This document shows, piece by piece, positions 4,767-13,795 of a DNA stretch of 64,000 nucleotides (position 1 is the first letter of the stretch; each line of letters opens with the position of its first letter). The translations under genes and the position numbers were made by a program. This DNA comes from Chryseobacterium capnotolerans (GTDB taxonomy: Bacteria > Bacteroidota > Bacteroidia > Flavobacteriales > Weeksellaceae): positions 4,159,001-4,223,000 of the forward strand of contig NZ_CP065589.1 in NCBI RefSeq assembly GCF_021278965.1. The letters run 5' to 3'. Below the pieces are notes generated by a model that had not been told where the DNA came from, did not search any database, and was given only the letters and a program-made list of their open reading frames with translations.

Positions 4767-4809
4767 TTATTTTTCATTTTGTGCTTATTTTTTTGAGAGG
4801 GGGGAGTGC

Positions 4810-4842
4810 AAACCTTATAGGTTTTAAAAACCTATAAGGTTT
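4810..4842. repeat. Perfect palindromic REP-like hairpin next to the RAYT gene
   Basis: Arms of 16 bases (4810-4825 and 4827-4842, core AACCTTATAGGTT) around a single A. It lies 43 bases upstream of the RAYT start, the usual place for a RAYT-bound hairpin. It could also act as an mRNA processing or termination site after paaY. Confidence 0.75.
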
Positions 4843-4849
4843 AGGTTAT

Positions 4850-5443: not shown

Positions 5444-5450
5444 ATTTTTT

Positions 5451-5540
5451 TAATTTGAGAATTTGAGAATGAGTTAATTTGAAAATGAATAATGCCGCTA
5501 AACATTTTCAAATTCTCAAATTGTTTCATTTTCAAATTGA
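5451..5540. repeat. ATTTGAAAAT-word inverted repeat, paaJ/paaY junction
   Basis: Left arm 5451-5489 contains AATTTGAGAATTTGAGAAT, a short spacer, then AATTTGAAAAT. Right arm 5503-5540 contains ATTTTCAAATTCTCAAATT, a spacer, then ATTTTCAAATTG. The core is about 13 bases. The right arm is nearly identical to the one at 9205-9241. Confidence 0.85.
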
Positions 5541-5541
5541 T

Positions 5542-6747: not shown

Positions 6748-6752
6748 AATTT

Positions 6753-6854
6753 TAATTTGAAAATGAGTCAATTTGAAAATTTGAAAATTTTAGATAAGTA
6801 AAATTAAAGGTGCTCGATAATTTTCAAATTACCGCATATTCAAATTTTCAAATT
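6753..6854. repeat. ATTTGAAAAT-word inverted repeat, paaI/paaJ junction
   Basis: The left arm (6753-6790) holds three copies of ATTTGAAAAT. The right arm (about 6818-6854) holds three reverse-complement copies, with the single-word and double-word parts in the opposite order from the other family members. The core is about 27 bases. Confidence 0.85.
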
Positions 6855-6856
6855 CT

Positions 6857-7590: not shown

Positions 7591-7594
7591 ACTA

Positions 7595-7678
7595 TTAATT
7601 TGAAAATTAAATAAATTTGAAAATTTGAAAATGAAAACCTGTTATAATCAATTTTCAAATTGGCACATTTTCAAATTA
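7595..7678. repeat. ATTTGAAAAT-word inverted repeat, paaH/unknown junction
   Basis: The left arm (7595-7633) has three ATTTGAAAAT-type words. The right arm (7651-7678) reads ATTTTCAAATTGGCACATTT and on, with the same spacer signature (GCACATT) as the repeat at 12622-12745. Confidence 0.85.
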
Positions 7679-7679
7679 T

Positions 7680-8813
7680 CTAATTCATTTTACGAAGCAA
7701 AGGACTTTGTCTGTACCTTTCTTCCTGATATTCATTGTAAAGGTTCTGTAAGGTTTCAGAAATTTTTGAATATCCGATTTCCTGTCCCCAGCCTAATAAT
7801 CCTTTTGGATAGTTTACTCCTTTTTGCATAGCCAGCTCAATATCTTCGTCATTAGCAACACCTAATCTTTTAGCTTCTACAGCTTCGTTGATTAACATTG
7901 AAATGATTCTTAAAAAAATCTGCTGATACAAAGCATCATCTTTCTCAGCAACAGGCTTTTCTGCTCCTTCGCTATAATCGTAAAAACCTTTCCCTGTTTT
8001 TCTTCCATGAAGTTTAGCCTCAGACATTCTCTGCTGAAGTAGAGAAGGTTTATATTTCGGATCATAGAAATAATCTTTGTAAACCGTTGTTGTTACGGCA
8101 AAATTTACATCTACTCCAATAAGGTCCATTAATTCAAAAGGTCCCATTTTGAAGTTTCCTATTGTTTTCATTGCTTCATCTACCTGTTCCGGCGTGGCAA
8201 TATTCTCTTCAACAATTCTTAATGCTTCACCATAATATGGACGGGCAATTCTGTTGACAATAAATCCTGGAATATCCTTAGCAATAACAGGTATTTTACC
8301 CCATTCTTTCATGAGGTTGTATATTTTTTCAGCTAAAGTTTTTTCTGTTAATAAAGAGGGAATTACTTCCACTAAAGGCATCAACGGAGCTGGATTGAAG
8401 AAGTGAATTCCGATGAAACGCTCCGGTTTCTTTAATTCTGCACCAAGGGAGGTGATAGAAATAGATGATGTATTGGAACCGATGATACAGTCTTCAGAAA
8501 CATATGTCTCCAATTCTGTAAAAACTTTGGTTTTGATGTCTTTGTTTTCAATGATCGCTTCGATGACCAAATGAGAATCTTTTAAATCCTGTAATACTTC
8601 ACCTTTTACGATATTGTTTCTGATCTCTGTGGCTTTTTCCTGAGAAATTTTTCCTTTTTCAGCTAATTTCTGAAGGGTTTTCTCTAAACCTGTAAGTGCT
8701 TTATCTATTTGTGGAGCATTAGCATCGAATAAAACGACCTTGCATCCTGCTGTTGCAGCTACCTGAGCTATTCCAACGCCCATGGTTCCTGCCCCAATAA
8801 TTCCAATGTTCAT
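7680..8813 (-). CDS. paaH: PaaH: 3-hydroxyadipyl-CoA dehydrogenase
   Basis: A 377-residue NAD-dependent 3-hydroxyacyl-CoA dehydrogenase. The N-terminal Rossmann motif IGIIGAGTMGVGIAQ is present, followed by GSNTSSISIT and the IHFFNPAPLMPLVEV segment with the catalytic His. Two C-terminal helical domains follow (GPFELMDLIGVDVNF and PKGLLGWGQEIG). The length fits the PaaH type with a duplicated C-terminal domain, longer than the short 3-hydroxybutyryl-CoA form. It oxidises 3-hydroxyadipyl-CoA to 3-oxoadipyl-CoA. Confidence 0.93.
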   Translation of the reverse strand: MNIGIIGAGTMGVGIAQVAATAGCKVVLFDANAPQIDKALTGLEKTLQKLAEKGKISQEKATEIRNNIVKGEVLQDLKDSHLVIEAIIENKDIKTKVFTELETYVSEDCIIGSNTSSISITSLGAELKKPERFIGIHFFNPAPLMPLVEVIPSLLTEKTLAEKIYNLMKEWGKIPVIAKDIPGFIVNRIARPYYGEALRIVEENIATPEQVDEAMKTIGNFKMGPFELMDLIGVDVNFAVTTTVYKDYFYDPKYKPSLLQQRMSEAKLHGRKTGKGFYDYSEGAEKPVAEKDDALYQQIFLRIISMLINEAVEAKRLGVANDEDIELAMQKGVNYPKGLLGWGQEIGYSKISETLQNLYNEYQEERYRQSPLLRKMN

Positions 8814-8816
8814 AGT

Positions 8817-8858
8817 TTTAATTTGAAAATTTGAGAATGAGTTAATTTGAAAATTATT
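8817..8858. repeat. Left arm of the ATTTGAAAAT-word element flanking the four-helix-bundle ORF
   Basis: AATTTGAAAATTTGAGAATG, a short spacer, then AATTTGAAAATT. It matches the left arms of the repeats at 5451 and 13688. Its right-arm partner is not nearby but at 9205-9241, beyond a complete ORF. Confidence 0.85.
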
Positions 8859-9207
8859 TAAATTTTGATGTTGAAATAATTTTAGAGAGAATTAATATTA
8901 TTTCTCTTAGATCTAAAAGTAATTTTTCTTCAGGCGAATTCAAATATGGAGACTTTAAACACAATAAAAGCCAGTACTCAGTTTCATCTGCTTCTTTGGC
9001 AGCAATTTTAATTTTATGAATAAAATCAGCCTTACTCTCAGCATTTTGAGCTTCTCTTACGTTTGCACCAATTGAAGTTCCGGATTTAAAAATTTGATTA
9101 GCAAGCGGAAATCTGTTTGCTTTATGCAGGACCTCAGAAAATTCAATAATATCTAATGCAAATCCAAAAGTTTTCTTTACAATAACATTTTCTCTATCGT
9201 CTCTCAT
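8854..9207 (-). CDS. Four-helix-bundle protein (S23/IVP/Avd-like family) carried between repeat arms
   Basis: About 117 residues starting at ATG 9207. The family signature is clear: FSEVLHKANRFPLANQIFKSG, TSIGANVREAQNAESKADF and EADETEYWLLLC, as in the TIGR02436 four-helix-bundle proteins. That family includes proteins encoded by 23S rRNA intervening sequences and the Avd accessory protein of diversity-generating retroelements. Avd binds reverse transcriptase and RNA. The role of stand-alone members is unknown. Its start codon is the ATG at the edge of the right repeat arm and its stop overlaps the left arm, so the ORF occupies exactly the core position of the repeat. No reverse transcriptase or variable repeat is present. 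Confidence 0.85.
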   Translation of the reverse strand: MRDDRENVIVKKTFGFALDIIEFSEVLHKANRFPLANQIFKSGTSIGANVREAQNAESKADFIHKIKIAAKEADETEYWLLLCLKSPYLNSPEEKLLLDLREIILILSKIISTSKFK

Positions 9208-9241
9208 TTTCAAATTCTCAAATTAACCCATTTTCAAATTG
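9205..9241. repeat. Right arm of the ATTTGAAAAT-word element flanking the four-helix-bundle ORF
   Basis: CATTTTCAAATTCTCAAATT, a spacer, then CATTTTCAAATTG. It is nearly identical to the right arm at 5503-5540, including the internal CTC variant, and ends just before the paaG stop (9244). Confidence 0.85.
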
Positions 9242-9243
9242 AT

Positions 9244-10044
9244 TTATTTTCCTTTATAATTAGGTTTTCTTTTCTGTAAAAAGGCATTTACACCTTCTAT
9301 GAAGTCTTCTGTTTCTGCGGCTTCCTGTTGCAGATCACCTTCAAGCTCCAACTGCTCTTTTAAAGTGTTGGTGTATGAGTTTGCAAAGGCTTTTTTCGTT
9401 AGCTTAATTGCTGCTGTTGGCATATTCGCCATTCTCTCAAGGATTTCCATTGATTTTGGCCCGAATTCTTCTTCTGTGAACACCTCAGCGACAAGACCGT
9501 GAGCTTTAGATTCTTCAGCAGATAATTTTTTACCTGTGAACGCTAAATAATTAGCCAATTGTCTACCTAAAAGCTTCGGTAAGAAGTAAGTTCCTCCTGT
9601 ATCAGGAATCAAACCGATATTTGAAAATGCCTGAGCGAAATAAGCTTTGTTATTAGCCAATACGAAGTCACAGATTAGCGCCAACATAGCACCAGCTCCT
9701 ACTGCGGGGCCATTTACTAAGGCAATAACCGGTTTTTTGCAACGCGTTACTTCCATTACCAATGGATTATAGTAATCTACCACAATTTTTCTGATGATAT
9801 CCTGATCATGGTGCTCTTTACCTACCGCAAAAGCTTCTTCAAGATTTTGACCTGAACAAAAAGCTCTTCCTCTTCCGGAAATGGCAACGCATCTTACATT
9901 TTCATCTTCACTGCATTCTTTAATGAAATCTTTCAGATCCCCTAAAGAAGGTTTTGTAAGTGCGTTCATTGTTTCAGGCTGATTCAGGTAGGCGATTTTA
10001 AGCTTTCCGTCAAAATGCGATTCAATATCGAGTTGTGTATACAT
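9244..10044 (-). CDS. paaG: PaaG: 1,2-epoxyphenylacetyl-CoA isomerase (enoyl-CoA hydratase/isomerase family)
   Basis: A 266-residue crotonase-fold protein. The start is set at ATG 10044 (MYTQLDIESHF). The oxyanion-hole segments are SGRGRAFCSGQNLEE and NGPAVGAGAMLAL. The SNIGLIPDTGGTYFLPKLLG segment has the Asp-containing form typical of PaaG rather than the Glu-containing hydratase PaaF. PaaG converts the epoxide to oxepin-CoA and also shifts double bonds in later steps. It is the only crotonase in this operon. Confidence 0.88.
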   Translation of the reverse strand: MYTQLDIESHFDGKLKIAYLNQPETMNALTKPSLGDLKDFIKECSEDENVRCVAISGRGRAFCSGQNLEEAFAVGKEHHDQDIIRKIVVDYYNPLVMEVTRCKKPVIALVNGPAVGAGAMLALICDFVLANNKAYFAQAFSNIGLIPDTGGTYFLPKLLGRQLANYLAFTGKKLSAEESKAHGLVAEVFTEEEFGPKSMEILERMANMPTAAIKLTKKAFANSYTNTLKEQLELEGDLQQEAAETEDFIEGVNAFLQKRKPNYKGK

Positions 10045-10060
10045 AGTTTTGTATTTTATT

Positions 10061-10120
10061 TTTAACAATGCACTAATTTAACAATATAAATCAATGTAAT
10101 CGTCTAACAATTTAATAATC
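10061..10120. repeat. Intergenic repeat of ATTTAACAAT words between paaD and paaG
   Basis: Repeated AACAAT / ATTTAACAAT words. Read on the minus strand, part of it is TTGTTAAATTAGTGCATTGT, which has the same layout (word-ATTAG-YR-CATT-word) as the TTTTCAAATTAGCACATTTT spacers in the ATTTGAAAAT family. The rest of the paaG-paaD gap (10121-10199) shows no clear signal. Confidence 0.6.
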
Positions 10121-10199
10121 TAGCCATAACATCGTTATGTTTTGCATAGTCCATAAATGTGATGGTAAACTGATATTTTGATTTATTGTTCTACTCATT

Positions 10200-12234: not shown

Positions 12235-12240
12235 TGTTTA

Positions 12241-12337
12241 ATAGATTTGAAGACTAATAGATAATAGACGGATAGATGATAGACAAGTAAGCCTTAAGGT
12301 CTTTTATCTATTCGTCTATTATCTCCAAGTCTATTTT
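12241..12337. repeat. Inverted repeat with ATAGA/GTCTAT words, paaB/paaC junction
   Basis: Left part: words such as AATAGATAATAGACG and GATAGATGATAGAC. Right part: TCTATTCGTCTATTATCT then AGTCTATTTT. The two halves pair imperfectly around a core of about 17 bases. It occupies the same kind of junction as the ATTTGAAAAT repeats but uses a different word. Confidence 0.7.
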
Positions 12338-12338
12338 A

Positions 12339-12620: not shown

Positions 12621-12621
12621 A

Positions 12622-12745
12622 ATTAATTTGAAAATTTGAAAATTGGTTAATTTGAAAATTGATGAATCGTGTTCATTGAAAATTTGAGTATAAATAACGT
12701 GGTTAAAGTCATTTTCAAATTTTCAAATTAGCACATTTTCAAATT
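12622..12745. repeat. ATTTGAAAAT-word inverted repeat, paaA/paaB junction
   Basis: The left arm (12622-12661) begins 2 bases upstream of the paaB start codon. The right arm (12710-12745) reads ATTTTCAAATTTTCAAATT, then AGCAC, then ATTTTCAAATT, and ends at the paaA stop. The core is about 48 bases. Confidence 0.85.
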
Positions 12746-13682: not shown

Positions 13683-13687
13683 AATCT

Positions 13688-13793
13688 TTTAATTTGAGAA
13701 TTTGAAAATTAGTTAATTTGAAAATTATTTAGAGAAAATGAGAATAAACGATTACCCATTTTCAAATTTCCAAATTAGTACATTTTCAAATTG
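13688..13793. repeat. ATTTGAAAAT-word inverted repeat, paaE/paaA junction
   Basis: The left arm (13688-13727) contains AATTTGAGAATTTGAAAATT, a spacer, then AATTTGAAAATT. The right arm (13756-13793) contains CATTTTCAAATTTCCAAATT, AGTAC, then ATTTTCAAATTG. It fills almost the whole gap. Confidence 0.85.
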
Positions 13794-13795
13794 AA

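Follow-up and report, generated by a model that had tools for sequence, protein, structure and literature searches.

An IVP gene framed by inverted word arrays

The DNA analyzed here is a 64,000-nucleotide stretch of the Chryseobacterium capnotolerans genome (NZ_CP065589.1, positions 4,159,001 to 4,223,000), hereafter the window, in which a small gene of the intervening-sequence protein (IVP) or S23-like type occupies a junction of the paa operon between two inverted repeat arms. The gene (8854..9207, minus strand) encodes a 117-amino-acid four-helix bundle which scores above the family thresholds of both PF05635 (82.5 bits; cut-off, 33.8) and TIGR02436 (95.1 bits; cut-off, 24), with four helices as in 2rld and 2gsc. 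Read in the coding sense, its 5' arm (9205..9241, minus strand) consists of octamer words in the order W-X-W-W, of which the last letters are the ATG of the gene, and its 3' arm (8817..8858, minus strand) carries the complementary words w-x-w-w, overlaps the stop codon, and ends right before the start of the next gene. Both arms are present where an earlier note on this DNA had placed them, and the boundaries that it described are exact: the right arm has the ATG at its inner border, the TAA falls within the left arm, and a complete open reading frame (ORF) lies exactly between two inverted octamer-word arms. Its further remarks, that the right arm is nearly identical to that of an ORF-less copy and that such copies have short cores, likewise agree with our data, since 33 of 37 positions match 5503-5539 and since, in AATTTGAA elements from 21 paa operons, the loop as measured by our script spans 10 to 51 nt in ORF-less copies versus 351 to 368 nt in ORF-bearing ones.

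The IVP gene is the sole ORF of at least 90 amino acids in the element, which contains no Y1 (HUH) transposase and sits between two protein-coding operon genes, not inside an rRNA gene. In the predicted RNA fold, the two arms pair with each other over 31 bp, as counted by eye. With up to three mismatches allowed, the W-X-W-W arm pattern has 12 matches in the 5.36-Mb genome, compared to none for the reversed control pattern, and none was found in a 220-kb sample of the genome outside the window. These counts, together with random and shifted controls, rule out that the arms are scattered randomly around unrelated genes.

Word arrays at IVP genes in the genome, the genus, and other bacteria

The PF05635 profile finds nine loci in the C. 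capnotolerans genome, and by eye all nine genes adjoin inverted arrays of 7- or 8-nt words, which differ from locus to locus. At eight of the nine, the inverted-arm score exceeds that of all 354 random window positions. Their neighbors, inspected by eye, include pairs which we take to be groES-groEL (L001), carA-carB (L003), and sufC-sufD (L005), the names groES, carA, sufC, and rlmN being assigned from the sequences. At L006 (G000:C1:1910180-1913494), the gene appears by eye to be flanked not by two arms but by two entire hairpins with the same type of word: a complete ORF-less GGAAGCT-type hairpin stands on each side, the two being near-identical direct copies, and the inverted match scored at this locus falls in an AT-rich part of these flanking hairpins.

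PF05635 matches occur in 58 of the 59 genomes of the genus, and the loci used here are the best-scoring matches listed in these genomes, not a random sample. Inverted arms score above the 99% quantile of 912 shifted controls at 22 of 38 genus loci and above the control maximum at 12. When we called the strands of neighboring genes for 103 loci at 20 sites, they were clear on both sides for 75, on one side for 21, and on neither for 7, and no antisense neighbor was called. Median ratios of nonsynonymous to synonymous substitution rates (dN/dS) range from 0.04 to 0.18 at eight sites and therefore place the IVP protein under purifying selection; a ninth site gave 0.43, from three usable pairs of very different proteins. 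Within a single cassette the period need not be the same on both sides, as in L148 and L155, where a long run of TTAG tetramers makes up the 5' arm and TTTTTAG heptamers the 3' arm. Several loci were dropped or used in part: L029 (short contig), L037 (broken ORF), L090 and L103 (broken ORFs, left out of the protein tree), L201 (broken, left out of the arm-lineage comparison), L338, L368, and L377 (contig edge), and L415 (unparsed). The naming of word families, and of the IVPs that match them, was done by eye.

Across the phylum, PF05635 is matched in 116 of 148 genomes, and among the 30 best-scoring loci the inverted arms exceed the 99% control level in 21 and the maximum in 13. One IVP used as the query gave a further set of named loci, 77 of them usable and many from metagenome bins, some of which may be misplaced; here the 99% level of 2093 controls is exceeded in 26/43 loci from Bacteroidota and in 26/34 from other groups. 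The latter include Thermodesulfobacteriota (5/5), Planctomycetota (4/4), Melainabacteria (3/3), Pseudomonadota (3/4), Nitrospirota (1/2), and Bacillota (1/2). Seven or eight is the best flank period at 20/20 genus sites, 28/30 phylum loci, and 68/77 named loci, compared to 41 of 159 control ORF flanks of the own genome; further peaks stand at 14 and 16, and no 7/8 peak was seen 600 nt away in the genus, phylum, or named set. The same period is found in the GC-rich arms of some other phyla, e.g., L332 and L357. The arms mostly hold two to five exact word units, with a drop after five, and a strict rule of five words per arm is not upheld. Antisense neighbors were called at 3 of the 30 phylum loci and 4 of the 77 named ones. 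An rRNA location was rejected for these related IVPs, since Rfam finds no rRNA in the surrounding 1.5 kb or so at any of 20 non-Bacteroidota IVP loci. Two Acido-Lenti-1 RNAs were noticed near an IVP locus of a KSB1 bin (L380, 2480-2525 and 3053-3098).

Interchangeable hairpins at operon junctions

The two genes flanking the window element were named by the earlier note, and both are found in 59/59 genomes of the genus: a paaG-like gene upstream (9244..10068, minus strand) and a paaH-like gene downstream (7680..8813, minus strand), which follows paaG throughout. Empty paaG-paaH junctions, which that note had proposed to look for in relatives, do not occur in these genomes, the shortest junction being 76 nt long; other hairpin families occupy the junction instead. 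Each of the 43 short junctions outdoes 39 or more of its 40 shuffles in hairpin formation, and all 16 long ones have matching ends. By word family, the junctions comprise TGTAACA (21 genomes), AATTTGAA with the ORF (16), AATTTGAA with a deleted ORF (1), TTAGAAG (8), TGTACAAT (8, including G011 on reading), and GTATTAAT (5). On a 59-tip tree built from the sequences of the adjoining genes, 29 changes of family occur, compared to an average of 32.4 after shuffling (a count as low arose in 22 of 300 shuffles), which indicates that the junction switches nearly independently of its neighbors.

The proposal that the ORF is cargo of the element is supported at this junction, where the IVP gene is confined to the 16 long versions, all with AATTTGAA arms (14 intact ORFs and two broken, L090 and L103), and is absent from all 43 short ones; nowhere in the 59 genomes is it conserved there without the repeat. 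Deletion derivatives, the other origin suggested for ORF-less copies, exist as well: the paaG-paaH junction of G044 (183 nt) retains only both ends of the ORF, and the x-rlmN junction of G041 (86 nt) retains both arms with the ORF gone. Hairpins are also exchanged at other paa junctions (in a comparison that covers 17 of the 21 genomes, including two incompletely), between groES and groEL (50 genomes, of 58 with a match), and upstream of rlmN (29 of 58), where 11/12 short and 16/17 long junctions pass the pairing test. A repetitive extragenic palindrome (REP)-like sequence (ATGCTTCGACAAGCTCAGCAT and near variants) lies in the loop of TGTAACA-type hairpins at paaG-paaH in L061, L065, L086, L093, and L094, i.e., one repeat system is nested in another.

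The paa operon of the window itself carries five other AATTTGAA hairpins, all ORF-less. Three share the operon orientation of the ORF-bearing copy (5444..5541, 12621..12743, and 13683..13795, all minus strand), one is inverted, with W-W-X-W and w-w-x-w arms (6748..6856, plus strand), and one with fewer words could not be called (7591..7679, minus strand). Further paa junctions hold hairpins from other word families, among them a AGATAATAGAC hairpin (12235..12338, minus strand), whose words resemble by eye the arms of an IVP gene in G001 (L424), and, at the paaD-paaG junction, a decayed hairpin (10069..10199, minus strand) that looks TGTAACA-like by eye. Both arms could be called in 24 of 39 AATTTGAA elements, and their orientation was concordant in all 24; ORF-less elements were found in both orientations, every reversed one at a single junction. 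A palindrome family distinct from the word arrays, AAACCTTATAGGTTT...AAACCTATAAGGTTT, also lies in junctions (window 4767-4849; L113, 11866; L121, 1324), and the paaD-like to paaG-like spacing reaches 2.3 to 5.1 kb in G017, G049, and G047 (L134, L135, and L136).

Word type follows the IVP lineage

In the IVP tree, proteins cluster by site for most sites. When we compared arms and lineages over 103 loci, IVPs of at least 65% identity at different sites had mean arm cosines of 0.53 (sites 1-6), 0.64 (sites 4-8), 0.58 (sites 11-19), and 0.28 (sites 3-5), whereas IVPs below 50% identity at the same site gave 0.23, 0.25, and 0.40, the background being 0.20. Where one lineage occurs at two sites the arms agree in three of four cases, and where several lineages occur at one site the arms differ, as at the carA-carB junction with its three IVP lineages and three arm types. 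TGTAACA-type IVPs are present at carA-carB as well as at o7270-paaJ, and every ORF-less word family of the paa operons has, by eye, an IVP-bearing counterpart somewhere in the genus. The word type follows the IVP lineage more than the genomic site.

Word copy number was counted as pattern matches, several of which may overlap within one arm. Ten genomes have a known matching IVP that is intact, and in these the TTAGAAG pattern has 24 to 106 matches per genome (median, 42); for the remaining 49 the median is 3. At least 20 matches are reached by 11/11 genomes with a known matching IVP, including G056, versus 5/48 others (Fisher test, P = 1.6e-8); a search for a matching IVP in the word-rich genomes lacking a known one had yielded the G056 copy only, which is broken. 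In seven tree-independent pairs, about six point the same way and none the opposite way (median P = 0.031, range to 0.0625). For AATTTGAA a link is seen as well (5.7 versus 2.1 matches; P = 0.0003, uncorrected). The idea that the IVP is the nucleic-acid-binding partner of the repeat has indirect support only, from the tracking of IVP lineage by word type and from the copy numbers of TTAGAAG, one of the two word types tested; AATTTGAA gives no significant copy-number support, as detailed below.

A proposed mobile cassette

We favor, at a probability of roughly 0.6, the explanation that the arms and the ORF form a cassette which spreads among operon junctions and leaves ORF-less copies, with the IVP as its word-specific nucleic-acid-binding protein; both this binding and the moving enzyme are what we infer. 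The data suggest a class of exchangeable genetic elements that has been little noticed. As read from the sequences, the argument draws on the arms, their period and complementarity, the sense orientation, and the purifying selection on the IVP, and on hairpin replacement at the same junction and the joint occurrence of arms and IVP lineage in three of the four comparisons between sites.

The putative unit comprises the IVP gene together with a 5' arm built of 7- or 8-nt words and a 3' arm with the complementary words. The gene would be expressed from the host operon, and its product would bind the word array of its own cassette, either single-stranded or as a hairpin, and promote the copying of hairpins of the same word into other junctions as DNA, for which the host would provide the enzymes. 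Hairpins lacking the ORF would then be nonautonomous copies or deletion derivatives, and the alternative hairpins of a junction may be reshuffled by interspecies homologous recombination through the conserved flanking genes; ordinary recombination of this kind can account for much of the exchange between species. The inverted ORF-less copies argue against a purely RNA-level movement. The sense orientation of the IVP-bearing copies suggests that host-operon expression matters, although it is not special to the IVP, since RAYT-like genes are mostly sense too (17/20 on both sides). By analogy with its relatives 2rld, 2gsc, and Avd (4dwl), all five-chain structure entries, the IVP is probably pentameric.

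A number of results weigh against this explanation. The cassette holds no recombinase or nuclease, no target duplication could be established, and no recent insertion was caught among the genomes compared. The fold of the window element is not exceptional (z = -1.67; 7 of 100 shuffles fold equally well), the groES-groEL arms are weakly complementary (pairing test passed by 11/24 short and 13/26 long junctions), and compensatory changes in the TGTAACA hairpin at paaG-paaH are weak, with a double change in 1 of 13 pairs (alignment A2 of 20 of the 22 junctions first labeled so, L095 and L104 being left out). Sites 3-5, which contribute more high-identity comparisons than any other two sites (44 of 80 locus pairs), differ in their arms (cosine, 0.28), and the cross-site correlation between arms and IVPs is only suggestive (24 representatives; 28 of 500 permutations as high). 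Five TTAGAAG-rich genomes (G001, G018, G039, G047, and G058) have no known matching IVP among the matches listed, and ten more IVP loci from four of these five were all of other types. When only independent pairs are compared, the link between IVP and copy number for AATTTGAA loses significance (median P = 0.125), and G007 has 11 AATTTGAA arm matches and no P0001-like protein at an E value of 1e-12. Lastly, G045 retains its paa-junction hairpins with no IVP match, from which we conclude that the IVP is not needed to keep hairpins; a role required for their upkeep is thereby ruled out.

Alternative explanations

The alternative that survives best, which we regard as unlikely yet worth serious attention, is that the hairpins are host-made elements, such as mRNA stabilizers or processing or translation-spacing structures, kept by selection, that the IVP regulates the operon mRNA at its own arms, and that the only mobility is interspecies homologous recombination. 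The persistence of hairpins in G045 fits this alternative, as do the strong purifying selection on the IVP, the absence of any empty junction among the 59 at paaG-paaH, and the distribution of strong hairpins in a 284-kb sample of the own genome, at 8/113 co-directional (five of these eight in the window's paa operon), 1/20 convergent, and 0/22 divergent junctions, numbers too small for a test. However, one IVP lineage with its arms at unrelated junctions, tens of same-word matches where a matching IVP is known, and inverted ORF-less copies at one junction speak for units that spread, and several unrelated word families occupy one and the same junction.

Movement by another resident enzyme is much less probable. 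The arms might be REP-like palindromes moved by the RAYT (Y1 transposase) of the same genomes, with the IVP genes as passive passengers, and Y1_Tnp is indeed present in 53/59 genus genomes, in some cases within about 2 kb of IVP genes, with REP-like inserts visible by eye in the loops of some hairpins. Yet 16 of 20 RAYT-like genes exceed all controls for inverted flanks of their own, which by eye are palindromes like GTCCCGAAGGGAC or GCTCCGTAGGAGC, not arrays of 7- or 8-nt words, and of the six genomes with no Y1 match, G010, G024, G036, and G054 hold IVP cassettes; we consider this explanation very improbable. The RAYT-like genes themselves (L242-L261; e.g., L243, G000:C1:2339200-2341000) lie between co-directional genes, sometimes about 2 kb from an IVP gene. 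Copying by a cellular reverse transcriptase (RT), as in diversity-generating retroelements, with the IVP as an Avd-like cofactor, is more improbable still: RVT_1 is matched in only 32 of the 59 genomes, whereas the IVP is matched in 58, and the 27 unmatched genomes reject an RT as a requirement. RAYT and RT are thus poor candidates for the mover, given the palindromes proper to the former and the limited distribution of the latter. That a common small gene simply happens to fall within AT-rich intergenic DNA of low complexity, a view for which the AT-rich genomes of the genus and the simple sequence of the arms might speak, has next to no chance in the face of the shifted and random controls and of GC-rich arms with the same period.

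Relation to known systems

In REPs and bacterial interspersed mosaic elements (BIMEs) with their RAYT, a gene lies between inverted repeats and gene-less copies are dispersed, and the IVP cassette shares these features. It differs in lacking a Y1 transposase and in having word arrays instead of a single palindrome, and both systems exist side by side here.

The intervening sequences (IVSs) of 23S rRNA, e.g., in Coxiella burnetii, carry the same protein family on an ORF between inverted stem-forming arms, according to the accessible part of PMC4990558, and the complementary arms of the window, which pair in the predicted fold, resemble their stem-forming ends. ORF-less versions along with IVP ORFs are also described for 16S insertions of Candidate Phyla Radiation (CPR) bacteria in the portion of PMC11270868 at hand. 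Unlike rRNA IVSs, the cassettes here lie in operon junctions, their arms are arrays of 7- or 8-nt words, and a genome has many coexisting word families, most of which go with an IVP lineage of their own. The resemblance of PF05635 to Avd, the accessory protein of diversity-generating retroelements (4dwl, 8ub7), is noted in excerpts of PMC10053308, and the two may have the four-helix bundle fold in common, the Avd structure being a five-chain entry like those of the IVP relatives; 27 of the 59 genus genomes have no RVT_1 match. IVP/S23 proteins are called functionally uncharacterized in the passages available from PMC10053308 and PMC11270868.

TAACTGA heptamer repeats were reported in Beggiatoaceae, cyanobacteria, and five Bacteroidetes, with a patchy distribution and no evident mechanism, in the main text of PMC4679880 as far as available. 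They are intergenic heptamers, many upstream of start codons, and in this may resemble the arrays studied here, although that paper presents them as direct repeats. Its main text does not use the terms S23, four helix, or intervening sequence. In our set, the Phycisphaerae IVP locus L347 has TCAGTTA/TCAGTTG arms, the reverse complement of the TAACTGA word. An IVP gene between cmr3 and cmr2 in one cas locus, interpreted in the available part of PMC3936711 as having a CRISPR-Cas-associated function, shows the same junction placement as the genes here. In the open-licence literature, as far as its text was accessible, we found no published link of IVP genes to 7- or 8-nt word arms in operon junctions and no work connecting rRNA IVSs, TAACTGA heptamers, and cas-locus IVPs.

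Significance

Members of the IVP/S23 family are named for their rRNA setting, yet most loci examined, in many phyla, adjoin arrays of 7- or 8-nt words, and in the genus the genes lie in sense between operon genes wherever the neighbor strand can be called. It is tempting, if doubtful on balance, to extend the cassette to a recombinase-free class of mobile elements over many phyla, in which a nonenzymatic four-helix pentamer would read its own 7- or 8-nt word, at about 7 to 8 nt per subunit along the several words of an arm, and propagate hairpins into operon junctions, and of which rRNA IVSs, TAACTGA heptamers, and the IVPs of cas operons would be members or traces. The word arrays beside the genes already give a direct binding hypothesis, namely, that each IVP reads its own word. 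Odd linkages, such as IVP genes within cas operons, are thereby offered an explanation, and heptamer repeats that had none gain a candidate protein. The paaG-paaH tree implies that an operon junction in a bacterial genus can switch between interchangeable hairpins nearly independently of the neighboring genes.
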